NCBI GenBank assembly: GCA_950295325.1 | Contig: OX485805.1 | Location: 44,912,758 to 44,976,757 of the forward strand | Source: Polytrichum commune | Lineage: Eukaryota > Streptophyta > Polytrichopsida > Polytrichales > Polytrichaceae | Reading direction: 5' to 3' | Length of the DNA: 64,000 nucleotides | Part shown: piece after piece, positions 5,405 to 61,612 of the stretch | How positions within the stretch are numbered: position 1 is the first letter of the stretch | Layout of the letters: each line of letters opens with the position of its first letter | The notes under the pieces: generated by a model | Told to the model about the DNA's origin: nothing | The model's input: the letters and a program-made list of their open reading frames with translations, nothing else | Databases searched by the model: none | Program-made: the position numbers and the translations under genes

Positions 5405-6798
<1,394 letters not shown>

Positions 6799-6897
6799 TC
6801 AACACAAACATCTTGAGGTAGATCATATATGATTTTGCCACATCTAATCATCTTTAATCTAGAGTTTTTGGACTCATGAGTCGTTGTGGAATTGAAA

Positions 6898-7176
6898 AGA
6901 TAATATGAACTAGGTGTTGAATGCGAGGAGCCTTGCCACAGATTGTGGTAGGCATTCGACCTACCGAGATGCAAATTTAGCTAAAAACTAGGTATTGGGT
7001 GCCCGCTTACAGCCAATGACACAATGACACATGTCCATTACCAAAATAATGGTCAGGCCATGACAATGTCATCAATCACTAGTAGGAATATGCCTCCTCA
7101 TATCCAATCAAAAATAGACATGTCACCAACATTATTTGGGGGTGTAAGCATCCTTGGGTGGCTCCACTAGGAACCA
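6898..7176 (+). repeat. Repeat R, left copy, with its right terminal repeat
   Basis: Bases 6898-7135 are a diverged direct copy of 21003-21235, sharing GAGCCTTGCCA, TAGGCATTC, AGGTATTGGGTGCC and CCTCATATCCAATC. The copy ends in AAGCATCCTTGGGTGG...CTAGGAACC at 7147-7176, whose inverted match starts the right-hand copy at 20903-20930. It lies between GH1 exon 6 and the multi-gene segment. Confidence 0.65.
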
Positions 7177-7574
7177 CCTAGGAAAAGTTGCAGGAAATAG
7201 AAGGTGGACGACCATTAAAGTTATTTTCATGTAGGAAATAATTAGTATTTTTCCTATTGGCTCTTTTAACTGACACAACCTTATCATCCTTGCTGTCAAA
7301 AGGGAGTCCCGCCTATATCGATTGGTAAGCTAGTCTGTTCGAAAAAAATCCTAAGGACCTCCTGGTCCCGCCGAAACTCGGTGACGAAAATAGCAACTAC
7401 ATGTGGCTCACTAGCGAAGAATGGTGATAGGGTAGGGTTATTGGGCGAGGACTTAGGGGCTCTGCTTGCGCGCGAGAGTTCGAGCGAGCGGCAACCTTCA
7501 GGTTGTACACTGATGTCATTTGATGTTGTTTTTTTTGCGTTGTTTCCAGAAACTCATTGGGTTTAGAGTTGGCT

Positions 7575-10500
7575 ATGGCGAAACAGGTTGGTTTTGGCAA
7601 TTTCAGATTTCAAATGTACATGTCTATCTATCTTGGACCAGACGGTGATTTCTTCATCTCCACTTATGCATCTTCTGTTATCATTCCAGGATGAATCCAT
7701 TCTAGATCTCCACTATTTCATCAATGTCCAAGGTTTGAGAGGAGAAGGGAGGGAGGTGAAGTCTTTGCAAGAGGGTGACGTCTCTAATGAGGAGATTTGT
7801 GAGATTTTTGGACCTCGTAAGGATAAGAATGGCTGGAAGGTCAATGAGAAGCCTAGTAGGGAGTTCCAAGAATCAGTGGTGAATTTGTACTCCAGAGTGA
7901 CCCTCAGAGATCAAGTCCTCAATGACCAATTGACCTTGGAGTGGGCACGAGCCATTGTAGCAGAGAACAAGGGCATCCCTGTGAATTGGGCATCTTTTGC
8001 AGTGCACCTACACAAAAAAAGGGTGTCTTTGGAGAATGTCAAAAAGGCCAAGAAATTGGCCAAGGAGGGCACCAGTTCCGACTCCCTCAATGCGGCAACT
8101 AGATCATGGCCAGAGCTACCTCCAGGGAGTTCCATTGCCCAACTCCCTGTTTCTATTGTAGGAGCTGGTTCACAACTCCTTTCCCCTGCCCTAAAACCTA
8201 AGTCTACTGGTTCTTTGCTTGGACCTGATAGGAAGGGTAGTTTTCGGACACCTGTGAATCGTTCTCTAATGTTGCGGGCAACTAAAGGGAAGGTCGAATC
8301 TGGGGTGTCTATTAAGCGTGGTAGCTTTAGTGTTCTAAATACAAGGGTGAAGGCAGGGATGGCCCCTGATCTAACAGTTGGTGGAACAGAGGACCTCATT
8401 AGTAGACTACATGAGTTACTTCTTTCTAAGCAAAAATCATTGTTACAGTCAAAGGAACGGCTCCGTGCCAGTAGTGACACTAAATCTGATATTGAGATGG
8501 ACTTCAAGAGGGCAAAACTCATGCTAGATGTTCTTAAAGGTCTCCATACTGATGCGGAATGTGAACTTTCTAGAGCTCGTGTTGCTTTGCAAGATGCACT
8601 TTCATTTGAGTGTAATCCCATTCCTACTCCGGAAGCATCTTTTGTGGTGGAAGAAACTGTTGAGGCATTTTCATCAATTAATGCACATGAGGAAGATTCT
8701 GTTGCTCAATTGCAACAAAGATTGCGTTGTGAGGAGCGGAATGTCCAATCATCTCTTTTAAAACTTTCCGCAGCTGAGAAAGATTTTATTCTCAAACAAA
8801 ATGAACTAGCCAGTTGTGAAGAGGGATATGGGGAGGAAGTAGAACATCAGGTTGTTCTAGAAAGGATGTTGACACTCATTGCTGACTATTTGACTAAGTT
8901 GAAGGGTGGCATTTTATTAACCACCCACCCTGAACCTATTGGTAGGGCTGATAGGACTAAGTCCCAATGTGGTCAACTGAATGTTCAAGATTGTATCTTT
9001 TGCAAAGAAAGTTTCCATGTTAATGATATATGTGTATCCTCATGCGGTCACTGCTACCACCCTTGGTGCCTTGGTATGCACATTAGCACGTCCAACAAGT
9101 GCAAGTTACAAAGCTGTCAACAGGAATTTGATTTGCAATGGCGATTGTCATTTGGATTTGTAATTCCAAAGACTGGCGATCATCAACTCCACTCTGCAGC
9201 TATGTCTGGTGAGCCCTACCCCTAATTGATTGTTCGACGATAATTTTAGATCTTTACATTGTTTTTATGGCATTTTGTGCACAAGATATAAGACATGAGG
9301 TCAAAATATGTTTGCATCATTCTAAGTTACGCTTACCAAATGTTTGTATGTACCCTTGCTGCATTTATGAACTTAGATGATAAAATTTCAAGTTCTTTGA
9401 TGTTCCAGGGGTGCATCATACATATGTATGTTATGCCTTGCTACTTGAATTTGATTCATATTATTTTTGTGCGCATGTAGAATGAGTTCTACATTCCACC
9501 TCCTTAGGCTATGGATATCTACTCAGCTCTACACATTGTTGCAATCTATTCATTTATCTTGTTATTTACTGTGGGGTGGGTGTTCACATTGAATGTAGGT
9601 GTCTATTAGGAAGCACTACCATATTTCCTTAGTCCCCTACCCCACTAGGATTTGTTGTACTTACAAATCTTCCAGTATGTACAACTATGTTTTCAATTCC
9701 TTCTCCCAGGCAACTAAAAAGTTGCCTTCATTTGCAACCTTGCAAGTTTTAGGAACCAGGACCAAAAACTTAGGCCCACTTCAATGCCAGGAAGTGTGGA
9801 AATACCAATCATACCATTCTCAAGAGTCAAGAACTAGCTCATTGACTGTTATGCCTATTTCCCTACCCCTTTGCTTCCATTCCTACCCCCATTGTCATCC
9901 AGGAACCAATTTCCTATTGTCCTTGCCTGTCAACATAGCATTTTCTTCCATTCCTGCCATTTTTTTGAATCATGTCACAATTTCCTAGGGTCCTTCAGTA
10001 CTAGGAACCTATTTAATATCAATAGGAATATTGTTTGGAAACAGGAAGTGATCCCAGGTTCATTTGGATGCCATGACTATGTGGTATTAATTCCTAGATT
10101 GACTTTGGACCAGGATATCTCATGATTCCTGATTTAAGGACATGATTTCTAGCTTCCTGATTTAAGGACATGAACTCAGGGTTGCAAAAATCATGAATGC
10201 AGAAATCAGGACTAGATTGTTTAAGGACCTAGATTGTTTTTGGACCAGGACTATGTTTTTGCATTCCTGATTCCTATATAAGTCCTTGATCTTGGCTGCA
10301 GATGTCCATTCAGACTTTGGAGCTTCCACCACTATTTTTCAAGGGTTGGGCGACACAAACTCAACAATACCTGAGCCATCATGCTCTTTGAGGACCCATA
10401 CATCAGCAAGTCAAGACAACTTCATTCCTAGAAGTGATGCATGTGCAGAAGAATATGCAGAGGTGGCCTCAAAGAAATGCCATCAACCAGCGATTTCACA

Positions 10501-11600
10501 GAAATCATCATTGGTGGAAGCTGACAATGGAAATTCGCCAGGGTTAGACACAACTAGCCTTCAATGCATCATTTGCTTTGAGAAATGCAAACCCATGGCT
10601 ACATTGGAGGTGAGTGTTTGGGTTGATTACACCTGTCATTGTATAAAACCATACATGTTTTATTTGAACAACTCAATATTGGATTATAGGTCTAATGTTG
10701 GTCTCCAAAATTATCTATTAATACTCCTTTGCATGGGTTGTGATGCAGCCATGTGGTCATACTTGTGTTTGCACAACGTGTGCAAAAGACCTACTTTTGT
10801 GTCCAACTTGCTGTGACCTCATATCAGGATCAAAGCGTGCTAACCCGAAACCAATAGGTACTATGGTGGGTCTAGGGAATGCTTTCAATGCAAGTGTTCA
10901 ACCGGTGGTTAGGAGGACCATTAGATTTCCAACCAATAAACGCGCTAAAATTGCTAGTCAAGGACGTAGTGGGATGGAAATCCATGGATTCAAAGAGCCA
11001 GATTTTGATTTTGACTATGATGAGTCTAATTCTGAAGATGAATTGGCTATATTGGAGACCCCTACTGGTTCAGGGCAAAACAGACCTAGAAGAGCATCTT
11101 GTGGTAGTGGAAATAGTGTACTTTTGGGTTTAAATGATACGTATACTGATAGTAGTGATGATGATGAGGAGAGAGGTTGTCCTAGTGATCCCAAACCAAA
11201 CCAGGAAACAAATTACACCAGCAATTGTTTGGAAGACAAGTTGGATAAGTATACAGATGCCTTAGATTCAAAGGAGAAGATCTCTAACTCATCCTTGGAT
11301 GTTCATGACCTTCCAGCCTGCACCTCTGTAGATATTCAGTCTGAGTCTGATCAAATTGTTAAATCACATGACAACATCCCTCATGTGAAAAGGAAAAACC
11401 CTACAATGCCAGGTAATTTTGCGAAAAGAGTGACTAGAACTGAGGGTCCAGCTGAGGACCCTTCTGCTTTCCTAAGTAAACAAGGGGGCCAAAAACCAGT
11501 TGCCAACAAAGAGGTTATGAAGTTGTTGGCTGGCAGTCCTTCTAAGTCCGCCTCCGCTCGTCATGACAATAGGTCCAGACGAGGTGGGAGGGGCAAGTGA
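7575..11600 (+). CDS. RING-finger and coiled-coil protein of the multi-gene segment
   Basis: Four exons fit frame and splice signals: 7575-7586 (ATG GCG AAA CAG), 7690-9208, 10302-10609 and 10749-11600, giving about 896 aa. Without the tiny first exon the first in-frame ATG would be 7666. Residues about 40-130 form a domain shared with the neighbour gene (FGPRKDKNGW, then GIPVNWASFAVHLHKK). Residues about 250-420 are predicted coiled coil. A RING-like Cys/His cluster sits at about 439-480 (CIFC, CGHCYHPWC, then two more Cys) and a canonical C3HC4 RING at about 599-634 (CIICFEKC, PCGHTCVCTTC, CPTC), whose two halves are joined only by splicing exon 3 to exon 4. The tail is acidic. RING fingers of this type are usually E3 ubiquitin ligases; that role is inference. 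No host orthologue is recognised. Confidence 0.7.
9209..10301. repeat. AGGA-rich intron of the RING gene
   Basis: From about 9640 to 10290 the intron is crowded with short AGGA, AGGAAC, CCAGGA and TTCCT motifs (GGACCAGGA, CTGATTTAAGGACATGA twice). The same motif density recurs at 17800-18560 and 20330-20700 and is not seen outside the segment. Confidence 0.5.
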
Positions 11601-12285
11601 TGATTAGAGGTGCTTTTTTTCACTTAGCATTATGGAAATAAAAATTGAGTGTTCCTTGCATTCGTTATTTAAGTGAACTTATGGTTACTCATTGTATATC
11701 GAGTGATTATGCATCAATTATCATCTACTTGTTACACGTACTACATAAGCACATGTAGACCTAGTTGTTCATTTATAACATTCCAGGGACAATGATTACG
11801 TAGTTAGTTGTTTTATTTGATTGTCAATGATTAGGACAAGGTTTAGGCTACTTGGGAAATGATTACACTTGGAAATCATACATGTGGCCCATCCTCATGA
11901 TTTCAGTTCCTTATTGGCACAAATGATTTAAACTGACACATGTCCTAGTACTTCTAATGTTTTCATGCAGCTTCTAGAGACTCCCCTCCAATCCAAGCAG
12001 TCAAGTTGGCCATACGTGCTGGTGCATTTCCCACTCCTCTCTCTACTCTTACCCACAACCTTACCTTATTGCATGAGCTGCAGTTTGAAAGTCTTCATAG
12101 CTTAGTTCTGCACCTCTCTTTTCTAAGCTACCACATGCTAGTCAGTTGCCAGGTATTGAGGATTGGTTGCACTGGTGTAGGGATTGGGTTTAGATTTGTT
12201 GTAGCAGATTTCTATGGAGGGGAGTTGGAGGTGGTTTCGAGATGTTGTGGGTCTACCAGGAAAGGGGTTGTTTCCTTCTCCCAAC
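11601..12285. other. Spacer between the two plus-strand genes
   Basis: No reading frame of note. It probably holds the 3' end of the RING gene transcript and the promoter or leader of the next gene. A short open frame from 12214 runs in frame into the gene starting at 12286. Confidence 0.4.
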
Positions 12286-14051
12286 ATGGGGAAACGCTAT
12301 GCCTCTAAGAAGGAATGCGAGAAATTATGGGGAAAGCGCAAGAGCAACAACGGGTTTCGCTACACTACCCATGAGGATGAGGCATTGAAGACCAGGATCG
12401 AGACCCTCATTCGCCAAGTGTACCAGCGCAAGCAGACTCAGAATTCTGACATCAACCTTACCTTTGCACTTGGAGTGCTTGCAGAGCGCAAGGGATTTAG
12501 CATCAATTGGGCGAAATTTGCTGAAAGTGTGCACAGGAGGAAGGGAAGTTTCGTACCACTTCCTGAGTATAAAAATTCCTCTTCCAGCCAAGATGGGGAG
12601 GAAGAGGAGGAAGAGGAGGATGAGGAAGAGGAGGACAGTGAAGATACAGATGAGGACTTGGAGTTGGAGGAAGAGGAGGATCAGGAGGAGGAGGATCAGG
12701 AGGATAAGGATCAGGAGGAGAAGGATCAGGAGGAGAAGGAGGAAGTGGATCAGAAAGACAAGGAGGAGGAAGTGGAGGGAGGGAAGAAAGATGCAACTAA
12801 AGCAGCTGACAATGGGTTGCATGAAGGCAACTCCACTCAAGAACAAGACCATGTAGGGGATGAAGCACTTGTACTTGATCATGTAGCAGTTAATGAGCAC
12901 CAGGTTGTTGAAGAGGTTATTGTGCAACCTGCACCTACAATTCATGGTGGCCCTGATGCGGAACACCTCCAATCACCTAGCCAGGGAGTTGTGTGTCAAG
13001 GTGCACCTACAGTTTGCATTGGAGAGGAGCAACTGGGGGCAGAAGTAGGTGGTGAGTGTCCCTTTGATGACAAGGTAGCAACACAATACGAGCTCAACAC
13101 ACCTCCAGACAAAGAGAAGCTAGTGGGAGAGCTAAACCCTGATGGTCTGGTCCACTCTGATGTTGCGCCAGTAGCTGGTCAATCTGCCACTCCACCTGTT
13201 GTGTCTGAAGGGTTGCAAATGCCACCTACACTTGCAACAGATATTGATGACAATGGCTTGATTGTCATGGAGAGGGCAGTGAGGCTGAAGGAAGTGAGAT
13301 TGAGAGAGGACCAAGTGAAATTCAAGAGAGAACTCTTGGAATTCAAAATTGGACAGTTAGCATTGAAAAGGAAATTTTTGCAAGTAGGATCCCCTGATAG
13401 TGCAGAGGAAGAGGGGAGAGCTTTCCATTTGGGTGAGGGAGCCAAGTTTGCAAAATCCAGCTTGGCCACTCAAATCAGTGACATCAATGGGCTTGTGCTG
13501 AAGAAAAGACAAACTGTGAAGGTTTGCACAGAAGAGTTGGAAGCCATGCAGACAAAAGTCTGCGATCTGCTCTACAAAATGAACAATGCTGAAGGTCGTC
13601 TACATTCTGCCAAGGTCCAAGTCGTAGGTTTAGAGTCCATTGATGGAAATGATGTGCACAAGTTCGGATTGGCAGAAGTGCAGGATTCAATTCTTGAATT
13701 GGAGAAGATATGCCATGAAATTGGGGAAGTCAAGTTTGAACTTAGAACTAAGGTTGAGCAGCACAAGGGTGAATTGACAAAGCTCCATCACTATGAAGCT
13801 TGCCTTCTTCGGTTGAAGCAGAAAACATGTGTGCAAATGGAAGTCGAACAAGGTATGTGCTTAACCTTTCTTTTTATAGCAAGGCATTGTTCTTGAAGCA
13901 TGGTTTTGTTGAATTGAGTTCTTGCTGGTAGGTTTTGAGGAAATTTATATGCAGGGGTCCTTGTTGTCTCACGTTTTTGGTTTTTTGCATACAAGATAAG
14001 ACTTACTAATGTACATGGATGGTGGCATTGCCAGGCGTGCAATCTGGATAA
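12286..14051 (+). CDS. Acidic coiled-coil protein, N-domain paralogue of the RING protein
   Basis: Exons 12286-13852 and 14035-14051 (split Gly codon, then VQSG and TAA) give about 527 aa. An in-frame ATG at 12214 would add 24 residues; MGKRYASKKECEKLW is preferred because it resembles a compact domain start. Residues about 10-95 match the RING protein's N-terminal domain: LWGKRKSNNGFRY against FGPRKDKNGWKV, and ERKGFSINWAKFAESVHRRK against ENKGIPVNWASFAVHLHKK. Residues about 102-165 are almost pure Glu/Asp with QEE and QED repeats. Residues about 345-525 are charged, heptad-like coiled coil (RLREDQVKFKRELLEFKIG). There is no RING finger. It may be a DNA-binding or scaffold subunit; this is inference. 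Direction and spacing suggest it belongs with the RING gene. Confidence 0.65.
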
Positions 14052-15501
14052 GCTTACCACATTCAATTGCACTTGAGGCCAACATATCCTAAAGAGGTAA
14101 GTTTCAGCACCCCTCACATTGCGCAATTTTTTGGTTTATATTTCATTTATTATGTTTTATTGAGGTATTAGACAGTGTTGGCTCCTCACTACCAATGCTG
14201 GATTGTTGAAATTGACACTCTGTTTGTGTGTCTGACACTCAGGAGGTCAAGAACTTCACCCTTGGAACAACAAAGTACCATCCACCCTGTACACATAGGA
14301 AATAGATGGTACCATGTGGTAATTGGATGGTCCAATTTTGGCAACGTTACTTTTTTGAGTGGTATAGCATTTACTAGTACTTCTATTTTAGAGGAAGGGT
14401 TTTTTTTTATATACCAACAACAAGCAATGACAAATATGTAGATTCCTTTCAAATGTGCAAAGACCATATAGATTGTGTGAACATTTTCTTCTCCCTTGTG
14501 TTGTTGTTTTCGTCATGCAATCTACAACCAATCGGTAGCTACTAACTGAGATGCCTGATTCAAGAATGGAGTGAACACATGCATTTTTATTTTCGTTGTA
14601 CTAGAATATATAGGGTTGAATGTTGTGTATAGTATTGAGCCCTACAAATATTGCTGATGTTGAAAACAAAACTTTTGGAGGAATAAGACATGTATGAGGT
14701 TGTCAGTTCGCTCTCCCTACTTTAAGCCATAAGCTACAAGGTTGCTTGACTGTATCTGTCTAATTAACTCTGGTTAAGAAATTTTTGCCTTATATCTTCT
14801 ATATAGCATGTCTACATCTTAAGCTTAGTGTTCCATAGGTGGTGTACGAAGTAAGCCAAACAATGCAATGGGAAGCAGGCCTTAGTGGATATAGTTATAA
14901 TTAAGTGCCTTGCATGCTTAGGGATTTTCCGATGGAGTACACATAATCTTCAAATTTGGCTCAATGTCACTTTATATCATATGATAGCTACAATGTTAAA
15001 TTTATTGTGAGTGTCCTTGAAAATATCTATTGCCCAAGCCCGTATGCAAACAAAACGAACATATTCAAAATACCAACAACTCAGTTTCATCAAAATGTGT
15101 GGAAACTTGTTACAAATAGTCAGGGATGGTATGGAAATAAGAAGGCAACAAAAAACACTTGTGCTTTATTGACCATGAACTTGCTTTGTATTCACAGGTG
15201 CAGACCCTAAACCGCTGTCCACAATTAAAAATTAATGTCCAGAATTTACAATCATTGACTGCCTCAACATAATAAGAATGAGAAGGGGCACATCAAAATT
15301 TCAACCCGAACCCATAGCACATTGTAGGCTAATGAAATGAATTGAATTTGGAACCAAAAGTCCACCAGTGGGATGGTAGCACATTTGAAATGAGGAATAT
15401 ATTTGGTACAAGAGGCACTATTGCACTTAGGTAGAACTGATCATCTAAATCACTAGTACACATCACCCTAGCTACAAACTCCACGTTGTTAGATGATTGT
15501 C
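14052..15501. other. Spacer between convergent genes
   Basis: Holds the 3' ends of the plus-strand acidic protein gene and of the minus-strand transposase-like gene. No coding frame or repeat of note was seen. Confidence 0.4.
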
Positions 15502-18500
15502 TCAAGTTGCACTGAGCCTGGCTTCTATGAGTTCATGAGCAGCTGCAGGGAGAGTGTACACCTAACCAACACACACAAGGAATAATTAGGATGAAACCTT
15601 TAATGCCCCACAACATCATGATCACCACAACATGGAATCAAAGGATGGTTTTGCATAACAACCCATCCTCCTATCCCATCAAGCTAAAATGTTGAGCGCA
15701 AACAATCACATGGCATTATATTGGAAAACTAAAGCCCGCAGGTATCATATAATTCCCTTTTGCCTAACAGAACTAACTTCAATAACTTGCTATTTAAATA
15801 AGTTTTAAGATGTGCATACTAAATGAAGTGGGGCTTGTATGGATTGTATGTACCTGTGTCCCCTCCCTCCCACCTTTTTGTCGATGCCGAGCCGGCAACA
15901 TTGCAAACTTTGCAGCAATTACCAAATGGGAATAGATATAAGCAGGACCAGCATCGCAGAGTACATAAGATCTCATACTCCTTCCTTTTTGCTTATAGTA
16001 CCTGCCTACCACAATTTGCTCTCCCTTGTACACCTTTTGGCCCCAACAATCTTCCTTGGATTCTTCCTCGACTGCTTGAAGAGTCACTTCAGTAATTAAA
16101 ATCCAAAAATCTGCATCCTCGGAGTTTCCCTCATCAGCAACAACTGCAAAATGATCCCCAACCTCCAAGCTAGCAGCTATCGCCTCCCTGTCACCCTCCC
16201 CAATGACATCAACATGTTCCACATCTGCGCGCACGTCATCTGTGTTGCAAGGCTCAATCCTAATAAGTTTATAAGGCTCCACATAGTCATCATTATCACA
16301 AGGGCCATCACCTCCATCTTGACAGAAGCTACAGAAACATGATAGTGTCCGGACCTGCAAGGAAATCATATCCAATCCTACACTACGAACCTGGTGAAAT
16401 GATCTAGTTCCCTCCACAGTGCGGGCATTAAATTGATCTGCACGCACAACATCAGTGGTGGCCACCTCATGAAAATATCGTCTGACATCCCTACGCACAT
16501 TGGAATACCCAGCGTATTGCCGACCCATATATTGCCTAAGGTAAGCAACTGCATCACTCGCATTGTGAAGCCTAATACCATCAGGTTTCACCTGCTCTGC
16601 CCGAAGAGCTTGTTTGATTGTTGCTCCTGCCCCATCCCAACGTCCCTTGCCGTGCCCAGAGCCAAAGTGATTCCATTGCATAGCACACCCATTAGGTAGG
16701 TCTGGGCTTCTGGTTAGCGTAGGATAGCGGGTCACAAAAAAAGGGGACCTTGCGCACTTAAATTGAGAAGAGCATCCATCAGAGAAAACTATGTGCTCCA
16801 CTGGTAGTGCATGGCCAGACTCCCCCAAAAAAAGCCAATGCAAACCAAAACAATATTGCACAAATAAATTATCATGGGTTTTGTCATCACTCACATAGAA
16901 GTGATACTCAGTAAGTAATTTGGACTTGACATTCACTTCATCCCAGCCCGGATCAATTCGAAAGGTAATGTGCACTAGTATTGTCACCTGGAATGACTGC
17001 CAATGTTGGGATTGCACCTCGTTTTGCCATTGAAAGGAATAGTTTTCAGCAAAGTCAATAACAGATAGGATTTGATCACTGGACAAGTTTTCCAGGCAGG
17101 ATTTAAATTGACCATCTTGCCATTTTGCCTCAAAATTGTGTACCACAAACTCTGCAAGCTTGGGTTTAAGGAAGGATATGAATTCAGAAGGAGGAGTGGT
17201 CTTGTGCTCCAATCTAAGAGCATGGCGATCACCACCTTCAGAATTCTGGCCTACAAAAACATTCTCAAACTTCCTCCAGGGTATTAGTGTTGTGGAATTG
17301 GGGTCCACCTCATGAGGACACAATTGCAATTTCCACACACCACAATCATGACAATTTCCTCTTATGCACTGAAGCTTGTGGAAGTCCATGGACTCTAGTT
17401 TTGGACAAAGCACCAAATCGCACAGGGCCCTTACACCTTCAACTGTAGATGAGGAAGCCCAACATGGTGTTTCGGGAGCACGTGCACCACACACGACACA
17501 ATTACAGCTACAGGATTGGTGCAAGGTTCGTCGTCTCATGTTGTTGAAGCCTTCTTTCAATTCTGCAATCTGCACATGATAGCGGCAGCAACAAGAATTG
17601 AATTCCTGCAACCTCTTCACATACCAAGGCTTCAATGTCTCAAATATGCGCAGGCCAACTTCCACATTTGGATTTTCCTCTTTGAATCGAGTGTACAAAG
17701 AAAGCTGCAAAAACATAGAGCATTTCAAATATATTAATGGATGTTCACACTACACAAAACATTTGTGAATTCAATAACTAAAGCATGAAACACATAAATA
17801 TAGATTAGGAATCAGGACTGGGGTGTACCATCTGGAAATCTAGCATTCAGGAACTTGACTGTCCAGGAAAGAGGTGGTACGTCAGGAAAAATGCGGATAA
17901 TCAGGAAAAATACTATCAAAAAAGGAATCCTTAGGAACAAGGTTAGTCATCAGGAAACATAGGAATGTAGAACACAAATCATCATGAATGGGGTGTATCA
18001 ATTTGAAATGTAGCATTGAGGATCAGGACAAAGTACAAAAGAGATGTTTCTGCAGGACAAATGCGACTCATCAGGAACCATAGATAGAAGAAGTAGGAAT
18101 CATTAAGAATGTGGCCAATCATCAGGAAACATAGGAATGAAGGGTAGGAATCATAAGAAAATCCTAAAACATTGAAACCACTACAGGAACAATATCACAT
18201 GAAAAGGATACTTCGTCTCCAGCACAGTAATTGGATTGAAGGCTTGGGAACCAAAATTAGAGGCTTAAGGAAAATTATATATCCACAGGAACCACCAGGA
18301 AATAATCTAAACTCTGCAAACCTTTATAGGATCCAAGTCACTAGGAAAGATCCAAATAAAACTGTTCCAAGATTGAGGGGACCTCCTCAGTAAGCCTACA
18401 AATCTTTAGGAGCCTTAAGGACTAAATTGTGAATGGATTAGAACCCCAGGAACCGCCGTAAAAAATGGCAAGACCTTGGACATCACAGTAGATCACAATC

Positions 18501-19754
18501 TAATGTTGCAAAAATGCAAGGAAGCCCCTGATGAAACGAAATCATTCCATGATTATTCTAAATTTCCTAAATCAAGGAGGACCACATCATGATGAAGAGA
18601 ACCCTAATCTTAGACCCGACAAAAACAAGGACCCTCAAACACCAGCCTATGAGTGAGGTAAAGTCCAACAAACCCTTTACGACTTCCTAAAATGAGCCCA
18701 AACAGTAGGAGCTACATGTGTGTGAAGGTGGAAACAATAATTTTGCAATGGTGCACAGAATGAACATCACAAGGGCACTGGACCTTAGCAAAGACACCAA
18801 ACTAACACAAGCCTTGTCAAGAATGGAAAAAAAAATGAAAGCACTCAAAAAAAACTCCTAGGGGAGTGTTGTCATTTCAAGCCTAAAAAAACATAAACCA
18901 ATAATGACACCACTCCCTAAAATTTCCAATTGCCCTTAACATTGTGCATGTTTCATTATACTAGCATTCTAATGAATATAGAAGAGGGCCATGGCAAGGT
19001 GTACCTGAGATTCCATGAGGTGGTGGGTTGCATGCGTCTCCCACATTCCACTGTCGATTCGTTTCCTCACAACATCCTTTCTGTTAGGACTTACCCTTGA
19101 ATTAAGGCACCAGAATTCAACGATGAGTTCACGCACATTTGAAGGCATGGCATCTATACGCTTTGATTTTCCACAAAGAGCCCACAAAGACCTATCTACA
19201 CGGGAATCTAAACTCAACCACCTCACTATCCCAACATGGAAATTCCTCCTATGGATGCCAGTGAGAAGGCTTGTCTGCCTCATATTTGTATTCCTACTGG
19301 CAACCATAGGAATGATAACATTCCTAGCCCTTTGATCATCATTGGAGTGACAACCTTTGATTTGTTGCCACCCCCTAGCAATATTCCCTACAGTTTCCCA
19401 AGCATGTTCCATTTCAGAGTAGTTGGGGAGGACATTTTGCCAAACAACATGTTTCAATATTTTGGGAATCAATGACCTTTGATATTGTAGACCCCTTCCT
19501 GCTGTTTCTTGATACCATTGAAGGGCAAAATTCTCTGCCATCCTAGACGTTGACCTCTCCACATCAATGTTGCTATCCTCAGACCCTTGGGAGTCTAGTT
19601 CCTCGCACAGAACTCTCAGACCTTCAGACCTTCTCTGTCTACACCGTCTTTGCCGTTCATTTTGAGCCTGTCTTTTCTGAGACACTTCTAATTCTCTAGC
19701 AAGACGCTCTCGTGTACCTTGACCTGGCATTTTTCTATTCCGTTGGTTTGCCAT
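15502..19754 (-). CDS. DDE-type transposase-like protein, spliced
   Basis: Minus-strand exons 19754-19005, 17704-15854 and 15561-15502 join in phase 0 (MESQ|LSLYTRF; GTQ|VYTLPA) for about 886 aa. The N-terminus is very basic (RQRRCRQRRSEG). A middle block has FWCLNSRVSPNRKDVV, then FKEENPNVEVGLRIFETLKP. A Cys-rich region (CSCNCVVC through CHDCG) looks zinc-binding. The probable catalytic core has DFAENYSFQWQNEVQ (Asp about 467), FSDGCSSQFK (Asp about 559) and GSGHGKGRWDGAGATIKQ (Asp about 607). I know this motif set (DFAENY, SDG...QFK, GHGKG-DG-GG) from uncharacterised transposase-like proteins of animals and other eukaryotes; the superfamily name is not certain. A C-terminal domain follows (VGDHFAV, YSHLVIAAKF). 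No frameshift or stop was seen, so the gene could be active. Confidence 0.75.
17705..19004. repeat. AGGA-rich intron 1 of the transposase-like gene
   Basis: The 1300-bp intron has donor CAG|GTACAC and acceptor TTTTTGCAG|CTTTC. Between 17800 and 18200 about 15 copies of AGGA occur, many as ATCAGGAA or CATAGGAATG (ATCAGGAAACATAGGAATG occurs twice). Confidence 0.6.
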
Positions 19755-19778
19755 CTAATTGGAGGTCAATGAATAACC

Positions 19779-20228
19779 CTATAACATGCATGTCTCACTA
19801 ACACGACTCAAAGAGCAAGCTGATGTAAATGACAAAGGAGGAGAACTTTTGGAGGTTGCAAACCCATGGATACTCTGAGAAGACGAGGAAGAATTAGAAG
19901 GTGCCGATGAGCCAGTGCATTCGCAAGACGAAACACTCTCGGATGAGACTCCCTCTTCATGCCTTACATTCGAACCCTTGAAGAAATCTGTAATGAGTGT
20001 CTGGGAGTGTTTTACACCCAAAACCTGCCTCGGTCTCTCAAATCCCATGACAACCCACTTCAGTCTAATGCTACACGTCTTGGCACTACCCACTGTGTTG
20101 GAGCTTCCGATCCTGAAACCACCATAGCCGGCAAGTGAAAGGCGGCAAACATCACTTAGGAACTTTAGAAAATCGGCGGCAAAACATTCTCTCAGCAAAG
20201 TAGGTCCAGAATTTTTCGCTAACTCCAT
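19779..20228 (-). CDS. Small ORF with a PCNA-interaction (PIP-box) motif, upstream of the transposase
   Basis: A 149-residue frame opens with ATG at 20228 and ends 25 bp before the transposase ATG. It has a compact N-terminal part (LRECFAADFLKFLSDVCRL), then QTLITDFF at residues 76-83 (bases 20003-19980), an exact fit to the PIP-box pattern Qxx(I/L/M)xx(F/Y)(F/Y), followed by a Ser-rich acidic tail. PIP boxes bind the sliding clamp PCNA. The TD pair inside the box matches half of the CRL4-Cdt2 degron pattern; the basic residue at +4 is absent. It could be a separate protein or the first exon of the transposase: GTAAGG near 19962 and the acceptor AATTAG|ATGG at 19755 would fuse them. Which is true needs cDNA. 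Confidence 0.55.
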   Translation of the reverse strand: MELAKNSGPTLLRECFAADFLKFLSDVCRLSLAGYGGFRIGSSNTVGSAKTCSIRLKWVVMGFERPRQVLGVKHSQTLITDFFKGSNVRHEEGVSSESVSSCECTGSSAPSNSSSSSQSIHGFATSKSSPPLSFTSACSLSRVSETCML

Positions 20229-20902
20229 CTTATCAGTTCGTTAATGATCTAGTGACTTGGAGGAAAAGTGCTCTCAATCCGACAGCTCAGAATTAAAGTG
20301 GAAAAAGTGAGAGGTGGGAATCATGAATACCACCGTAGGAACGTTTGGCAGGAAAGTTTCCTATGCCATTCCGGGGATTCCTGAAAATTTGGCATGGAGG
20401 GCACTTTGCATGTTCACCATGTTTTTTTCCAATAGATGGCCCACTGGTTCACTAGAAGATGCCGAGGAGTAGCTTTGGGATGAGCTAAAACACAAAAATA
20501 AATCAATGTAGGTGTCCTTAATGATGTTGCCCCCGGAAAGTTGTGTTCCTAGAGGTCAAGTGACCCTACCTATTGTTTTAGTACCTATTTTTTGCAAATA
20601 ACGAGTAGGTAGCATTATTAGGTTCAGAAGTTACCATGCAAAAATAAAACCAAAGAGAATTGATATTATTTTGCATTCCTACTTGGTTCCTAAAGTTATA
20701 AGTATACACAGTTCATTCCTGAAATTCTTTGCTAACAACCTTTTCAAGGTTGAAAACACATGGTTTTTTCTTAGTCTTTTATATGAATGGCTACACCTAA
20801 ACCTAATTGACCTTAAAATGTGTTCATAAGGAAAAAAACAATCACTTAAGATTGAAAACAAGTTTCCTAAAACTTACACTGTCAAGTGAAATTTGAGTGT
20901 GA
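20229..20902. other. Upstream region of the transposase unit, right end of the segment
   Basis: No gene. AGGAA/TTCCT motifs continue (TAGGAACGTTTGGCAGGAAA, GGGATTCCTG). It probably contains the promoter of the minus-strand genes and subterminal sequence. Confidence 0.4.
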
Positions 20903-21240
20903 CGTTCCTAGAGGATCCACCCAAGGATGCTTCCTCCCTTGGCATGATGACCACATACATATGATGATCATTATATATGGTCATTCTATGTTGTCATTAG
21001 GGTATTGACATGATAGTATGAACTATTTAGTGGATGTGAAGAGCCTTGCCATTGATTGAAGTAGGCATTCAGCCTACTCGGGCGCGTTAGCGACAAAGTA
21101 GGTATTGGGTGCCTACTACAACTAAATGACAAGGCGACATGTGTTCATTATCAAAGATAATGGTCATGCCATGTCAAGGCCATGACATATAGATGACATA
21201 TGTCTCCTCATATCCAATCCAAAATAGACAATAGAACCAA
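20903..21240 (+). repeat. Repeat R, right copy, with its left terminal repeat
   Basis: Starts with GTTCCTAGAGGATCCACCC at 20904, the inverted match of the sequence ending the left copy. 21003-21235 is a direct diverged copy of 6898-7135. The motif CTTGACATGATGACTACATG at 21249 repeats the copy's own beginning, which suggests a truncated second copy. Confidence 0.6.
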
Positions 21241-21961: not shown

Positions 21962-22514
21962 CCCAGGTACGCAACTCCCATATTATACGCAGGGGGCATC
22001 GTACTTAAAACGGCTTAGAGGACGGCTTTTGTAAACATTATATCAAATTATATCAAATTAAAATGATCAAAAAGTTGGGTGAAGACCAAATTAAATAAAA
22101 TGAGATGAAAAAAAAGTTGGGTAAAGACCAAATTAAATAAAATGAGATGAAAAAAAAGTTGGGTGAGGACGAAATTAAATAAATGAGATGAAAAAAAAGT
22201 TGGGTTGCATATTTATTAAGCCTCCCATTAAAATTATAATTCATTCACAATGTTAAAATTATTAAAAAATCCAAAAAGTTGGGTAGTTTGACCTATGGTA
22301 CCTGTATTAAAAAAATCATATAATTAGGTTTTTAATGCAATTATATGCTTCAAATATATTCATTTCCTATATATAATTACATTTTTGGATTCCTTGTTAG
22401 AAGGGCTACAAGGGTTTCCTACATTAAAACAAATTGTATCACTCAATATTGGACTAAAACGCATTATAAGTGATTATAATCAAGACCATATAATACGGGA
22501 GTTGCGTACCCGGG
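21962..22514. mobile_element. hAT-like MITE (553 bp) with 8-bp target duplication
   Basis: Inverted ends CCCAGGTACGCAACTCCC and CCCGGGTACGCAACTCCC (one mismatch, similarity continues into TATTATA) are flanked by perfect GGACAACT at 21954-21961 and 22515-22522. Eight-base duplications are typical of hAT elements. No transposase is encoded. It sits in intron 2 of the GH1 pseudogene. Confidence 0.85.
22066..22205. repeat. About 42-bp tandem repeat inside the MITE
   Basis: AAAAGTTGGGT followed by GACCAAATTAAATAAAATG repeats about three and a half times, diverging slightly per copy. Confidence 0.75.
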
Positions 22515-28573: not shown

Positions 28574-29124
28574 GGTTGTTTACATCATGGACCATGAAGT
28601 TGTCCCATGTTAGAGGGCATTTTCCCATGGTCACACTTTCATGATCGATCTCTTAAAAATGCGTATTTAAAGCCTTTGAGCCCCTAACCAAGTGTAAACC
28701 GAATGTGGGCCAAGAGAAGTGACCATGCAAAGTGAGTGGATGTGTTGATTTTTTTGATATACATTTGTCCAAAAAAGGCATTTCTAGGGGGGAGATCATG
28801 TTTGACCCTCTCCCCTTCTTTCCTTGTAACCATGGAAATGTGTGTGTGTGAAAAGAAAGAAAGAAAGAAAGAAAGATCTCTGCCATGATTTCTTGACATT
28901 TTGCAGCAAGATAACCCCTTTTGCCTCTCCCACCACAAAACTTGTTGAACCATGAAAGTGGATAATGTAGGCCTTAAAATAGATCTTTTGGGACCTCAAG
29001 TTCCATAGTCACTCTTACATCTTTTTCTTAATGTAAACCGAAGTGGTCCCATGACAAGTTCAATGGCCAATCACATACTTTAGAGGAGTAAGGGATGACT
29101 TCATGGTCCATGATGTAAACAACC
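28574..29124. mobile_element. MITE-like element with 27-bp inverted ends (551 bp)
   Basis: GGTTGTTTACATCATGGACC plus ATGAAGT at the left is matched perfectly in inverse at the right end. No target duplication was recognised and nothing is encoded. It lies directly beside the LTR end. A GAAA microsatellite occurs inside at about 28850-28876. Confidence 0.75.
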
Positions 29125-29125
29125 C

Positions 29126-32100
29126 TTACAATAACTAGAAGTTTTATATGTCTCTTTTCTTGGAGATCCATGATCATAATCAATTGTGAGCCCAAAGTCG
29201 TGTGCTCATATGTGATTTAGGCATAAGTGTTGGTAGACTTTAGGATTTAATTGCTACTTCATAAATTAAAACATAAAAAGAGTGATATACCAAGTTTTAC
29301 TGGAATTGATTAATTAGATTGGAACATTAGGATTGGGAACCTTAGGAGGACGAGTAAGAAGCTTAAGGGCCTTAGGCCTCGGTTGCTAGAATGTTATTGA
29401 TTTACTTAGGAGAAAGGGGTGTTCGTTTAAAGGTAGGTGGCACTGTGACCTAGCAATTCTCAGATCCAGGGGCTGGGACTCCCTGGTAGGCTCGGGGTTC
29501 GGTTGTGTCACTCTCGGGAAAAACACAGGAACAGGGGAAGAGGTGTGCGGCGGATGAGGAGGAAGGCCCTGGGCCGAAGGGAGCTGGGGACGGAGCCGCA
29601 TTGGCATGCCGCGAAGGGCAGAGAGGGAAGGATGCGGGAAACGCCACATAGCAGCTGAGCCCCTCAGTAGGAAATAAGGGGAATACGGTGGAAGCCAGGG
29701 GCGGCCATGAGGGGGATTCCGCAGCTGCTGACACCGCTCGGCCTGAGGCAGCGGAGAACTGGGGGATGGAGGCATAATCAAGCTTGAGGGCAGCAAATTC
29801 CGAGGAGACAGACTAAATTAGGCGAACGGGTGAGGAGACAATCATTCTCTACGGTGTACTTGGCAGGAATTGGCAATGCCGCTGATGGTATTCGAAGTAG
29901 AATCTCTCTCAGTCTAGCCAAACAAATTCATTAAGGGACTGATCAGTCGTTGCTTAACAGCTAGCTCAATGGCCTGCCTCATGCGGACCGACCCAATTCA
30001 GAGGAGTCAATCATTCATTTTTTAGCAGGGCACGGAAGACTAAGTTGCCGAATTCCCACAGAGTGGGAGGTTCAGGTGTAATTCTTGCAGAAGGCGAAGA
30101 TGAGGTATAACATGCGGGAGGGGAGTATAGGGAGTGACCAGGGGATCCTCAAGTGGGGAGGTTTGGATCAGTTGGGCTTCGAGGCCGAATGAAAAATGCA
30201 GGTCTGCCGCTGCTGTATCTGATCAGATTAAATTGACTGGGCTGGAGGGCTGCCCAAGAGTGGGGGAATGTGTGCATTTCAGGGAGGGAGTTCGGAGGTG
30301 ACAAGCTGTGCTTGCGAGGAACGAAGGGGGCTGGTCATGGTGACATTCCGGGGGGAGCTCAGTCGGGCTTCAACGGTCGAGGGCGACCTGGACTGAAGGT
30401 GAGGGATTACCAGTGTATACTGGGGCTGGCAGCCGAGAGGGGAAGTACCCAGAACAAGGGAGGAGCCAGATCCAGAACGGTTCCAACTTCGGACCAGGCT
30501 GGGTCTTGAAGGCCTAAACATGAGGGCCACGGGAATTATTAGTATACGACTGAGGGGGATGTTGGGGGCCGAGGTGAACTTGGCATTTGCCTAGTTGAAA
30601 CTTTATTAGGTTTGGGTTGATTAATTTAGGATTGGAATGTGGTGTGGAAAATGCCACAAATTGTCGTAGATGAGGAACATAAGGACCTAAAGTATTTTCT
30701 CAATACTAGTACCTATGTTAAATTAATAAAGTTGTGTTTCAAGGCCATGTGATGAGTGTGATGGTGACCCACTCCAAAGGAGGAATCCGGGGGATAGTAA
30801 CATGTGAGCCAGGACTTCTCACCCGGACTAGGACGCATAAGGGTGGGGGTTTAGGCCTCACATCAATCATCAACTCTATTTGGTCAAGGCCTTGCACTCC
30901 AAACAAGCACACATGTTTGAGGTATGTGCATATCTTTATGTTCATATTTCATGTTCTCCAGCTTCTACTAGATAGATTTACACAAGAAAACTTGTGTTGC
31001 GTTAGCAAAACTACGATGAAGCATCCACAAAAATCGGATTGGCAATCAAACCTCCTTGAATCCTATGCTTATCGGAAATGCATCTTTGCTATTTCTTTAC
31101 TGCGTACATAGGTCCTCCCAATCATGTTCACTTTTGAGTGTGAAGTAGACAATACAATTTGTGCCCATGGGTGCACGTAGGCTAGGATTTCTCTAAAATT
31201 AAAGTTTTCTCTTCTAGAATCAACCAACAAGAAAAAACATCAAGCTTGCATTCTCATTTGGGCCCAAAAGAACCATCAACACATACCTGCCTAGAACCTA
31301 TGTCCATTCCTTGATGACTAAGCTTATAGCATTGGCTTGCAGGGATGCGTGAATTGGCATGGTGTTTGTGGCGCCCACCCTCGCAAGGGACGGTTATTGC
31401 CATTATGTATCGTCGGTGCAATCAAACTGTCCCTTTTAAATTCCTAGAAGACATTGATGACATTTATTGCTCCACGTGCCAAATTTTGGAATCTCCCATT
31501 AATTGCTAATAGAAACAACATTGCATATTATATGTCACGTATCCAATACTATGTAATTCCAAAGAATTTTTAATTTTATGGATTATTTAATTTATTTATC
31601 AACCGTGTACATACGACATGTGTTTACTACTATGTAACCTAGGGAAATAGGGGTGTCTCTACAAAGGTATGTTATATTATCTTGTTTTAAGTTTTTCTTT
31701 TTCTTTTTTCTTTTAAGTTCCAGTTAGTTGAGGTTGCCTTTGAAAATAGGAGGCCTTTGAAAATCATTATGAGGGTGGTTTCAACTCTTAAAGGTAAGAT
31801 GCCCATTTTGGGCCTCAAGGTGCCATGATACAAAGGGCTTAAAGATTGATTCTTCATGAGTGTACAATCAAAAATGTAAAACTGGTCAGCATTAATTGCC
31901 CATTAATCATATGCAATTTTGCAATCAATGAAATAAATACAAGCAACTTCGATTCTAGAGAGAGTTGAGCTTATATAAATGACATTGATCCAAATCCATG
32001 CCGTGTTTATTTTATCATCGTTGTCACAACTCACACATGACTTCATTCTTTCTTCATGTTTTATTTTGTTGTCATGATCATGAATTAGTATGATCGACCA

Positions 32101-33168
32101 AGTAAAACTTTATATGAATACTTGTTGGAGGGTTTGTAAAAATCGTCATGTATCCCATATAAATACAACCCTGAGCCTTTAGGGGTAAACAATTATTAAA
32201 CATGTGAAAACACTTTGAGGTGCATTGAGCCTTTGGATTCTTTTACTCTTACTATCTTCTTCTAGTGGTTGAGATAAGAAAGACAAGAAGAGAAGTGATT
32301 GCTTGAAGGACCAATCTTGTCCCAATCTCATGGTCAAATGGAAACTCAAATGTTGGGCAATGTGCACAACATACAACCACCGTTACAATTTTGATAATAG
32401 AAACAATGGAAAAGGCATACATGATAGTCAAAAAGAAGGAGAACCTTCACATTGACAACGTTTTCATTTTCACTCTACTTTTAGATTTTGAAATGACAAT
32501 CTTCAAGTAGATCATACATGATCATTCGCAATTCCAAGCCACGTGAGACAATCCATAAATCGGTCCACAAGGCCTAAGAAATTGTTTGTAGAGTTGGAAG
32601 TGCCCATAACAGGACCACGTGCCTTAGATGAGATCTCAAATTGGTATGAATTCCATTTCCAAGCCTTTGAATGAGGGACATGTTTACCCTTGAAGTATTG
32701 ATACTTAAAATGATGATCTATTGCTTTTAATTTGGAATTTTGAACACTAAAAATGAAACATTCTACAAATTTTCCATGTACAAAATCGTCCAAAAAAAAT
32801 CCCTAAAAATTATTTCAAAAAATGGATGAAAATTCCAACTTCTATATGAAATTGGATGGAATTTCTGTATAATCACTCATATGTGGCTTTGTTATTCCCG
32901 TGATTATAGCCAATGCCCCTCTCTTGGAAACCTGGAAATTGAAATTAAAATATGAATTCTTTTAAAAAAATTCAAAAACCACACTACCTTACAATGTCTG
33001 GGGAGATTTTTGTGCATAATCGGTCAAAATCCCAATGTTTTCAAGTTCAACCAGTTACATGTTGGGATCAACCGGTAATTTTCCTCAACCGTTTTTTCCT
33101 CAAAGTCAACAAGTTCATCTATAACAAAGTTAGCATTGGTTCCCCTGTTCATTGTGGCCTCCAAGATA
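29126..33168. other. Gene-free stretch with a GC-rich island
   Basis: No supported gene. About 29440-30540 is clearly more GC-rich than its surroundings and contains proline-rich or arginine-rich frames on both strands (29796-29386 minus), which look compositional. It may be a fragment of a retroelement leader; nothing confirms this. Confidence 0.35.
32985..33115 (-). repeat. Copy of the ACCGGTTG dispersed repeat (R3), inverted
   Basis: Read on the minus strand it shows AATTACCGGTTG, ACATGTAACTGGTTG, then ATGCACAAAAATCTCCCC, the same order as at 49900-50045 and 58250-58370. Confidence 0.6.
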
Positions 33169-33176
33169 CACTATAT

Positions 33177-33538
33177 CAGGCCTCATTAAATTAGGCGTTC
33201 TATAATTAAACGCATAAAACACATAAAACAAGTAGAGCGGAGCGCATAAATAAATAAAAATTGAAAATGCCCATGGCACATCTCGACAACAAGTCTGCAC
33301 AGTCCGTCGTGCAGTTCACACTCCTAACAGTCATCCTCGTTGATCAAAGTCTTCTCACTATCAACACAATAAAACACACCACACACAACACCATATGAAC
33401 CACTCTCCAGTTGTCCAATTCCGAACACTTTCCAGTCATTTCTTGGAAAACACCCGTTTTATGCACCCCGAGGCCACGGCGCGCATAAAGTAAGCTTAAA
33501 TATTTAATCTATGCAAACGCCTAAGTTTATGAGGCCTG
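33177..33538. mobile_element. hAT-like MITE (362 bp)
   Basis: Inverted ends CAGGCCTCATTAAATTAGGC and CAGGCCTCATAAACTTAGGC start with CAGG, as in hAT elements. They are flanked by 8-bp CACTATAT (33169-33176) and CACTGTAT (33539-33546), matching at 7 of 8 positions. No coding. Confidence 0.8.
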
Positions 33539-33546
33539 CACTGTAT

Positions 33547-35873
33547 GGTTGTCATCCAAGCTACAGTCGCTCTTGGGGACACTTATTGCAAGCCGCTTGT
33601 GCCATGCTTGTCCTTGAAGTTCGAACCATGTCATATCCAGGTGTCACTCGGGACAGCAACAAGACATGATTGATTGCCGAAAATTAAAGTCGGTAAATGT
33701 ATATTTGTGGTGTGTGGGCATGATGATCATTGCATTACAATTTAAGTGCCTTCTACTTGTATTATCTTCTATTTCAATCATTATGAATGGACTTATGTCA
33801 ACAAGGTTTGCACAAACTTAATGGATATCAACATGAAGCATGTCACGATTTTCACTTACAAATGTCTTGAATTGGTGTCATTTTTCATCTCAAATAAAGT
33901 TTCCTTCCATCTATATACAAATGGAGCTTGTGATAGTCGGAGTTTACGGAAGATCTTGAACACATGTCCAATTAGCTTTTCAAAGAAAAAGGGATACATG
34001 TCAAATATTCTTTTCTAAAATAAACATGTCACAAAATGAAACAAATGTAGAAAGGTGGGTACTACACGTGCAAAAGCTAGGCATGGTGGGGAAACTAGGG
34101 GGAGGTGACGGGCGTGTAGCTAAGGTGACGACATGGCATGGGCGATAGGAGAAAGCATGCATAACTATCAACTTAAAACGACTTTTCCCCTTTCGTTTCT
34201 TAAAGCTACAATTTTTGTCTAATTAGTGCGGGTTATCATTTGAAGTTATGCATTGCTAAGTATTTTTTAATGAGAATATTTTTTTATCCAAATAATATAA
34301 GTGGTTGGTATGCACAATGAAGAATATGATATAGCTTAGTTGGTAGATAATGATAATATCAGTAAAAAGTTATGACAATGAGTAGCTCCAAATGGTAACC
34401 TTGGCACACTAATTAGACAAAAGGTGTACATGGGGGCATCGTGGCATCGTGGCGGGTCATTTGGGGGGGGGGTTATGATCATGATCATGGGCATACATGC
34501 GTATGGTAGGTAAACACCGGCATGGGTGCATGGATGCATGGGTGCATGGATGCATGGGTGCATGGATGCATGGGTGCATGGATGCATGGGTGCACAATGT
34601 TTGGTTCATCCGGGATATTAATTCATATGCATGAGTGCAACGAATTGGAGTGGCATGGGTTCAGGCTAGTATCATTCATGTGTACTCATAATTCGATGGA
34701 GACTAGGTCTAAATGCTCCCATTGGTCTAGACCTCGTGTCTTGTAGTTGTAAATTTGATACCCTTACCCATACATGATTGACTCTTGTGTTTGATATATC
34801 ATGTGGTGTCATCCATGTGGCCATTCTATTTTGTCGTTAATATCTTATACATTGTAGAGGGCTCACTATTTCATCTTCACCTATGTCAAAATGTAGTTTT
34901 CACGTGGGATACGTATGGTCTTAGCGATTGTGAGCATGACACATGCCAAACATTTAGGGGAAAATTATTAATTTATTACAAAATAAAGAGACATCCATGG
35001 TACCATATGATTAAGTCATTTAAAGCAAAGAAACCCACCATGAGTGGTGATACATGAAAGCTTATGAGGTATTTTCAAAGGAGTACAATTTAGTCGTATT
35101 TAGAATACAGTATTTAAGTTAATTTTTATTTTCAATTTATAATATACAATTAAAATCACATCATAATTATACTTCTACACCTATTCACCTAACTATGTAA
35201 CGTGATCATATTTGTGATCTATCTAGCTTATTCTTATAGCATTTGGAATTAGGAATTCATTTGAAGTACTTATCAATTTATTAGATACATAAATTAATTT
35301 ATGTTTTGCATTATTTGATCTATGTTTTGCATTAATTTATGTTTTGCATTATTGTGGGTTAGTTTGCACCCCTCACATACTCAATATTGGCTATGCATAT
35401 ATGACAGGTGTGTGACCATTGCATAGACGTATCAATTTCCTATTCATGTGTCTGAGTCGTGATTATCTATTGGACACACTGGTTTGAATTGCCCTTTGGA
35501 GGTCAATCCCATATTCCTAAACCCTAAACCCATGTATCAAGGTGATTCTTTAAATTATAATTATGGTTCTCAAAACTTCAATTAGTTGCACTTTATTCAT
35601 ATATGTGATTGTTTAAAATCAAAACCCAATCAAAAAACCTTCTAAAAACCGTTGGTTCTTTGTCGGATCTTTGAATTTCTTTTAAAAAATAAACAGGGCC
35701 AAAGGTTCATATATTATAAAAACTCTCAAAACTTGAAAACCGAAGGTTCTTTGCTTCTAGATTTGTTTGTGAAAAGTGCAACTGGAAGTTAGTAACAAAA
35801 TCAAATACCCACCCAACATTGGTAAAAACCTCAATGCACACAAATACGAACTAAATTGGATGGAAGACCTCTT
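33547..35873. other. Gene-free stretch
   Basis: No gene seen. It contains the 16-bp minisatellite at 34521, a triple ATGTTTTGCATTA near 35300-35350, and two telomere-like CCTAAAC units near 35517. Confidence 0.45.
34521..34594. repeat. 16-bp minisatellite
   Basis: CATGGGTGCATGGATG repeated about 4.6 times with almost no variation. Confidence 0.9.
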
Positions 35874-35889
35874 TGTCACTATAAGAAAA

Positions 35890-46700: not shown

Positions 46701-46752
46701 CTTAATTATTCGGCTAACATGTGTTGAACCAGCTATATATGAACCTACGGTA
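46701..46752. repeat. Solo end of the TA-flanked element family inside the CACTA element
   Basis: TTAATTATTCGGCTAACATG through GAACCTACGG matches the right end of the element at 50202-51144. No left end was found nearby. Confidence 0.6.
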
Positions 46753-55066: not shown

Positions 55067-55089
55067 TAGTAAGTAGAGTAAGGGTAACC

Positions 55090-57880: not shown

Positions 57881-57924
57881 CAATAGAAAAAAAAACCATA
57901 AATACAACTAAAAAGTTTGCATTC

Positions 57925-59438: not shown

Positions 59439-59439
59439 G

Positions 59440-61605: not shown

Positions 61606-61612
61606 TAGTATA

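Follow-up and report, generated by a model that had tools for sequence, protein, structure and literature searches.

A RING-finger gene convergent with the transposase of a Sola-like DNA transposon in Polytrichum commune

A stretch of the Polytrichum commune genome (OX485805.1, genome contig C3, positions 44,912,758 to 44,976,757) harbors a DDE-type transposase gene side by side with genes for a RING-finger protein and a coiled-coil protein, which raises the question whether these genes belong to one mobile element and, if so, what a RING protein does there. The 64,000-nucleotide stretch is referred to below as the window, and all positions given are window positions. The first part of the question has a clear answer: the segment 7140-20938 is one discrete mobile element, i.e., a self-contained, recently mobile DNA transposon. 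For the second part we assign a probability of about 75% to the reading that the element is an autonomous cut-and-paste, Sola-like transposon equipped with a RING accessory factor and a motif array, probably used against silencing.

The element (7140-20938, 13,799 bp, no strand assigned) is defined by ends that are common to five near-identical copies. It is bounded by 35-bp terminal inverted repeats, the left one at 7140-7174 on the plus strand (beginning GGGTGTAAGCATCC) and the right one at 20904-20938 on the minus strand (ending GGATGCTTCCTCCC), which are 89% complementary and give the termini GGG...CCC. The initial annotation had described inverted 30-bp boundaries; the inverted repeats are indeed present, but they are 35 bp long and the ends had been placed 7-8 bp away. 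The repeats are flanked by a target site duplication, TTGG, found at 7136-7139 and at 20939-20942. Direct repeats of about 240 bp lie outside the ends (the unit to the left at 6880-7139, a second unit at 20993-21230). These repeats were considered as a part of the element and this was ruled out: at three paralogous places on the same chromosome, i.e., at empty sites, two repeat units are joined with a single TTGG, and the repeats are therefore a host tandem repeat that was hit by the insertion.

The first 760 bp of the element, used as a query, returned 20 matches, five of which, including that of the window, are 99-100% identical. These five near-identical copies are found at different sites, with their DDE and RING open reading frames (ORFs) listed at 100% identity, and where both ends were read each is flanked by its own 4-bp duplication (TTGG, TCCG, CAGC, TTAT and ATAC). 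Seven further copies of the near family show the duplications ATCT, GTAC, CAAC, AGAG, AATT, CATG and GGGT. The duplication is thus exact in 12 of the 13 near-family copies tested; in the exception, C7:39.4M, the paired ends have the same orientation and hence do not form a true pair (near-family copies outside this test of both ends include C3:52.2M, C7:27.55M and C5:0.54M). A degenerate 22-base pattern of the terminus matched 34 times, as compared to none for a reversed control.

That the genes form one element had originally been proposed from location, a shared motif and orientation, and a search for their joint recurrence and an alignment of loci had been suggested as checks. Both bear the proposal out: the transposase, RING and coiled-coil ORFs recur in the same order in the five near-identical copies, with shared ends and a separate 4-bp duplication at each site, and the claim is backed also by the empty site and by the pairing of DDE and RING genes in divergent families. 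Genes that differ in kind and strand might also have come together by chance, through nesting of two or more unrelated elements. This explanation has virtually no probability left, as near-identical copies at separate sites agree in the three ORFs, in their order and in the ends, and in the divergent families the same gene pair is enclosed by inverted repeats of each family's own.

The predicted DDD/E transposase gene (15505-19754, minus strand) encodes 886 residues in three exons (19754-19005, 17704-15854 and 15561-15505). The DDE-type protein with DFAENY, SDG and GHGKG motifs that had been noticed at the outset is found in the ORF at 15797-17749 (minus strand), which contains DFAENY, SDGCSSQFK and GHGKGRWDG. 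Three aspartates, D232, D324 and the D of GHGKGxxDG, are conserved in all rows of the alignment that cover them (7/7, 7/7 and 5/5, respectively), and the frame of the first exon ends at the same place in four divergent families, F1-F4. Relatives were found in none of 328 candidate stretches from viral contigs, in no phages and in one of 109 from a collection of genome contigs (L050). The latter, a fragment at L050:4559-5350 that is 32% identical to the transposase, lies on a contig labelled as a Trichormus metagenome-assembled genome. Because the same contig has long frames that were read by eye as being of the long interspersed nuclear element type, it is probably contaminating eukaryotic DNA, which suggests that the transposase family is present in another host.

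The RING accessory gene (7575-11600, plus strand) had been recognized correctly as a RING/coiled-coil gene, and encodes 896 residues in exons 7575-7586, 7690-9208, 10302-10609 and 10749-11600. Its splice sites are conserved in the window copy and in two others; the first RING ORFs of these two share 88% and 79% identity with that of the window. The protein is composed of an N-terminal domain, a coiled region, a RING-like finger and a C3HC4 RING; this second finger has the canonical spacing, CIICFEKCKPMATLEPCGHTCVCTTCAKDLLLCPTC, and is formed by the joining of two exons. The N-terminal domain modeled alone has five helices at a predicted confidence (pLDDT) of 59.5, which is unfit for a fold search. 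The second gene (12214-13896, plus strand) encodes the same N-terminal domain, an acidic tract and a coiled region and has no RING. As first proposed, the N-terminal domain is shared between the two proteins (28.7% identity, E 3e-12, for the first RING ORF of the window against the coiled-coil ORF of copy B). Of the three genes initially taken to be spliced, the RING gene and the transposase gene are, as seen from the conserved splice sites of the former and the common exon break of the latter in four divergent families, but the coiled-coil gene reads as a single exon. The transcription units converge, i.e., the transposase is read from the right end on the minus strand, while the RING gene and its RING-less paralogue are read from the left end on the plus strand.

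The ratio of nonsynonymous to synonymous substitutions (dN/dS) was calculated pairwise with our own script for the window copy against copies B and C, in both of which the frames are broken in places. The values are 0.16-0.26 for the transposase, 0.26-0.45 for the RING exons and 0.11-0.41 for the coiled-coil gene. The weakest constraint (0.51, copy B only) is found for an open frame at 19779-20240 on the minus strand, with an ATG at 20228, which contains the string QTLITDFF that we take to be PIP-like. The PIP-box ORF of the initial annotation is thus present as a frame, but its status as a gene is not established, and it is listed here as a candidate only. A loose PIP pattern matched twice in the four divergent families, once across a stop and neither time in the frame matched to this ORF. 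The ORF was also considered for an N-terminal transposase exon, but no matched frame was found in F1-F4; tblastx matches of 20-22 codons that tie its serine-rich part to F2 and F3 were taken for low complexity.

Does the RING gene belong to the transposon lineage as a whole? The transposase query gave at least 76 matches, from 100% down to 31% identity, which were merged to 63 loci, and the RING and coiled-coil queries gave at least 84 and 81 matches, respectively. These counts are lower bounds because only part of the candidates from the first look was scored (68 of 148, 79 of 149 and 77 of 190 for transposase, RING and coiled-coil, respectively). A convergent gene of the RING family is found within 40 kb of 45 of the 63 transposase loci and within 15 kb of 39; in 2000 random placements the count averaged 0.1 and never exceeded 2. 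A recount of orientations with a somewhat smaller list of RING-family positions gave 45 convergent pairs, one on the same strand, none divergent and 17 loci with no partner within 40 kb (38 convergent pairs within 15 kb). Transposases with no more than about 40-50% identity to that of the window still have the RING gene beside them. In divergent families, too, inverted repeats with GGG ends were identified, each family having its own, namely F2 (32 bp), F3 (26 bp), F1b (17 bp), F5, F6 and F8. Exact 4-bp duplications flank F1b (GAAT), F3 (ATAG), F5 (CCAC) and F6 (TAGA), and three of four bases agree for F8 (AGGA/AGAA); the families without resolved ends are F4, F9 and, from its first locus alone, F1.

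Some transposable elements capture host genes, and the RING and coiled-coil genes could be such captives of an ancestral element, carried as useless passengers. In line with this, no DDE match lies within 50 kb of 17 of the 64 RING-family loci. Four of these 17 were read, and three of them (C7:458742, C6:130042 and C2:65551846; the fourth is C1:62320655) align to F2 onward from the terminal GGG, to within a few bases. Since their start coincides with the 5' terminus of F2-type elements, these three solo loci are element-derived. They do not speak against a single element, for which solitary RING and coiled-coil genes at orthologous sites in related plants had been named beforehand as a refutation. 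At C2:65551846, where both ends were found, the F2 5' start and 603 bp of the 3' region are retained, which identifies an internally deleted element. For C7:458742 and C6:130042 no right end was found, and no transposase match was seen in the stretches around the three. Together with the RING gene beside such distant transposases, the nearly constant convergence and dN/dS values below 0.5, this makes the passenger explanation very improbable. We conclude that the RING gene probably serves the element, because it is constrained and stays with the transposase. The three F2-type copies with no transposase found, C2:65551846 (L039-L040), C7:458742 (L031/L037/L038) and C6:130042 (L032/L041/L042), all keep the RING gene, and two keep also the coiled-coil gene; they could be non-autonomous or trans-acting.

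The AGGA-rich introns described initially were confirmed by counts: AGGAA was found 68 times in 6.3 kb of non-coding DNA of the element, as compared to 14 expected from the flanks, i.e., about five-fold more often (exon limits in this count are approximate to a few bases). Clusters of YAGGAA are found at both termini, in the RING-gene intron (9209-10301, mostly at 9640-10301) and in the transposase intron (17705-19004, mostly at 17705-18640). The left inverted repeat includes CTAGGAA, and in the transposase intron YAGGA is strongly biased to one strand (23 plus, 2 minus, in two 500-bp bins from 17640 to 18639). For TAGGAA, 24 sites were observed against 3.0 expected from dinucleotide shuffles (z 11.3; highest control 8.1). 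The array is not a simple tandem duplication, because 23 of the 24 sites lie in unrelated contexts. The array of copy B reaches z 10.5, and other families have top motifs of their own: AGTACT in F2 (10.8), ATGGAC in F3 (10.6), TATGGA in F6 (7.1), CCGGAC in S1 (6.3) and those of F8 and S7 (5.7). Shuffle maxima were 4.8-5.1 for the window family, F2 and F3 (z 10.6-11.3), and these three exceed all six control stretches of the window. In copy B, 34 of 46 motif sites are intact, as compared to 194 of 400 composition-matched controls (p 0.0008). Two apparent arrays were rejected, i.e., the top motifs of F9 (z 9.3), which are tandem-repeat artefacts with 2-4 independent contexts, and TAGTACA in F1, enriched relative to flanks, for which F1b falls within the range of shuffles of its own sequence.

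To which known system does the element correspond? It was stated initially that the known plant DNA transposons (CACTA, hAT, MULE and PIF) do not carry this gene set; none of seven transposase members matches their Pfam models, but the list omitted Sola, the superfamily that fits best. Termini of Sola2 start with GRG, and a motif GHGKGPCDG is present in animal relatives. In the published descriptions, Sola elements have a DDD-type transposase and 4-bp target duplications and are reported from the moss Physcomitrella (PMC10741241, PMC9033089), with inverted repeats of 11-1124 bp and sizes mostly of 2-9 kb, some above 15 kb (PMC10741241), and the Sola2 transposase of Dictyostelium has 888 residues (PMC3627910). 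The present element resembles them in its 4-bp duplications, DDD-type motifs, inverted repeats of tens of bases and transposase of 886 residues; its 35-bp repeats and 13,799 bp fall within the reported ranges, and the 4-bp duplication is found in the near family (12 of 13) and in F1b, F3, F5 and F6, but not in F2 (6 bp). A RING partner for Sola was not found in the parts of the literature searched, the scope of which did not extend to the founding paper (PMC2727372). The element differs from Sola by the convergent RING gene with its RING-less paralogue, the motif arrays and the 6-bp F2 branch.

VANDAL elements differ from it in target duplications, type of transposase and the VANC domain. Likened without sequence comparison, they share with it the organization as a multi-gene plant transposon and perhaps the concentration of short motifs in non-coding DNA: VANDAL families have specific short motifs in introns, intergenic and terminal non-coding DNA, and clusters for VANC21 in VANDAL21 are found in introns and termini (PMC5735166). 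The VANC motifs form tandem repeats (PMC5735166), in contrast to the TAGGAA sites with their unrelated flanks. A RING finger is encoded by a DNA transposon also in Chapaev and RAG1 (Transib), and the RING of RAG1 is a ubiquitin ligase (PMC4411706), but there it is fused to the transposase whereas here it is encoded by a separate, convergent gene. Kolobok elements combine a transposase with lineage-specific accessory proteins such as KolX; these are nucleases, a helicase or KolX rather than RING proteins, and the duplications are TTAA-specific (PMC9587614).

From these comparisons a mechanism can be outlined. The transposase would use its three conserved aspartates to cut at the GGG...CCC termini and would integrate the element with a 4-bp stagger. 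The RING protein would act in trans for the element as an accessory factor of the E3-ligase type, and the clustered YAGGAA sites in termini and introns are a putative binding array of an element-encoded protein. By analogy with VANC for VANDAL, the RING/motif pair would most likely keep the element expressed and mobile in the face of host silencing; this function is favored because the motif clusters in introns and termini match the placement for VANC21. Alternatively, the RING protein and its paralogue could be structural partners in transposition, with the motif as their binding site for end binding or synapsis and no part played by host silencing. TNPA is such a partner for En/Spm, and CACTA elements have subterminal motif arrays, in agreement with the motif array seen in the CACTA element of the window; the clusters at both termini and the CTAGGAA in the left inverted repeat would also fit. 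Against this, the largest clusters are intronic and separated from the ends by thousands of bases, and it is hard to see what a synapsis factor would do there; also, F1b, F4 and F5 have the RING gene without a strong array. We regard the structural role as possible but on the unlikely side.

A number of observations weigh against the anti-silencing, Sola-like reading. Several of them concern the classification. The element was compared with published descriptions of Sola, and its membership there is provisional. The profile search suggested initially was run with Pfam, and models for CACTA, hAT, MULE, PIF/Harbinger, Mariner and Ginger matched none of the seven members at E up to 1 (the only match, DUF4326 at E 0.14, was to one member), while the same library detects tnp2 of the CACTA element of the window at E 6e-61. 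A sequence search of the PDB with the transposase gave no match, and the single-sequence model of the DDE ORF, with a pLDDT of 31, is unfit for a fold search. The duplications of the F2 branch are 6 bp long at the two loci read, TATGAG for F2 (L026-L027) and TAGTTG for the F2-like deletion derivative C2:65551846. A transposase of another, or an undescribed, superfamily would account for the missing Pfam match and the F2 duplications, and Sola was assessed by description only; the 4-bp duplications, DDD-type motifs, protein length and host range do fit the published Sola, so we consider this alternative rather doubtful.

The remaining points of this kind concern the RING gene and the arrays. 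PF13920 matches the C3HC4 finger at E 2e-5 and 24.7 bits, below the 27-bit cut-off. There is no convergent partner within 40 kb at 18 of the 63 transposase loci, and these loci are non-independent, about 15 being near-family copies. F1b (4.6), F4 (5.5) and F5 (4.9) show at most weak arrays, and their scores, like that of S6 (4.6), lie inside or close to the shuffle range. Copy C, which is more distant, retains 9 of 31 motif sites intact as compared to 61 of 269 controls (p 0.28, not significant). Of the six control stretches two are low (3.6 and 4.7) and four reach 6.6-8.1, among them the CACTA element (GACGTC, 8.1). Motif arrays were therefore rejected as a hallmark unique to these elements, and arrays in themselves may be common among the repeats of this genome. 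Given the arrays in controls and the weakness in three families, a role in end binding or synapsis, or one unrelated to the motif, stays alive.

The surroundings of the element in the window contain further features. A CACTA element at 37000-48000 has tnp2 (41931-43718), DUF4218 (44621-45181) and DUF4216 (45554-46201, under the cut-off), and its GACGTC array has 9 sites against 0.7 expected. Leucine-rich repeat frames that resemble plant disease-resistance proteins are found at 39-2600, and a fragment of a family 1 glycosidase at 6010-6345 on the minus strand. At 21962-22514, a 26-nt inverted repeat (92% complementary, 501 nt apart) surrounds 41-42-bp tandem repeats (22057-22205), possibly a miniature inverted-repeat transposable element. 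Motif-enriched stretches at 29000-37000 (CGTGGC, z 7.9), 48000-56000 (ACACTA, z 7.3) and 56000-64000 (CACTTC, z 6.6) are perhaps other mobile elements. A comparison of the window with Rfam gave no hit at the gathering scores.

That a RING-type partner accompanies transposases which have diverged this far implies that it does something useful for the element during its life cycle, perhaps at an interface with ubiquitin or with silencing. A more speculative proposal, to which we give limited credence, is that the element represents a second, independently evolved sequence-specific anti-silencing system of plant transposons, in which a RING ubiquitin ligase encoded by Sola-like elements, with the RING-less paralogue as partner or decoy, is directed to the element by a family-specific array in introns and termini and disables the host's silencing proteins at that place by ubiquitylating them, such that ligase and motif coevolve in each family. 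If the arrays do target an element protein, sequence-specific self-activation of transposons would have evolved more than once in plants, and targeted epigenome editing would gain a tool in that protein. With near-identical copies in the genome, experiments on the system may still be feasible in live plants.

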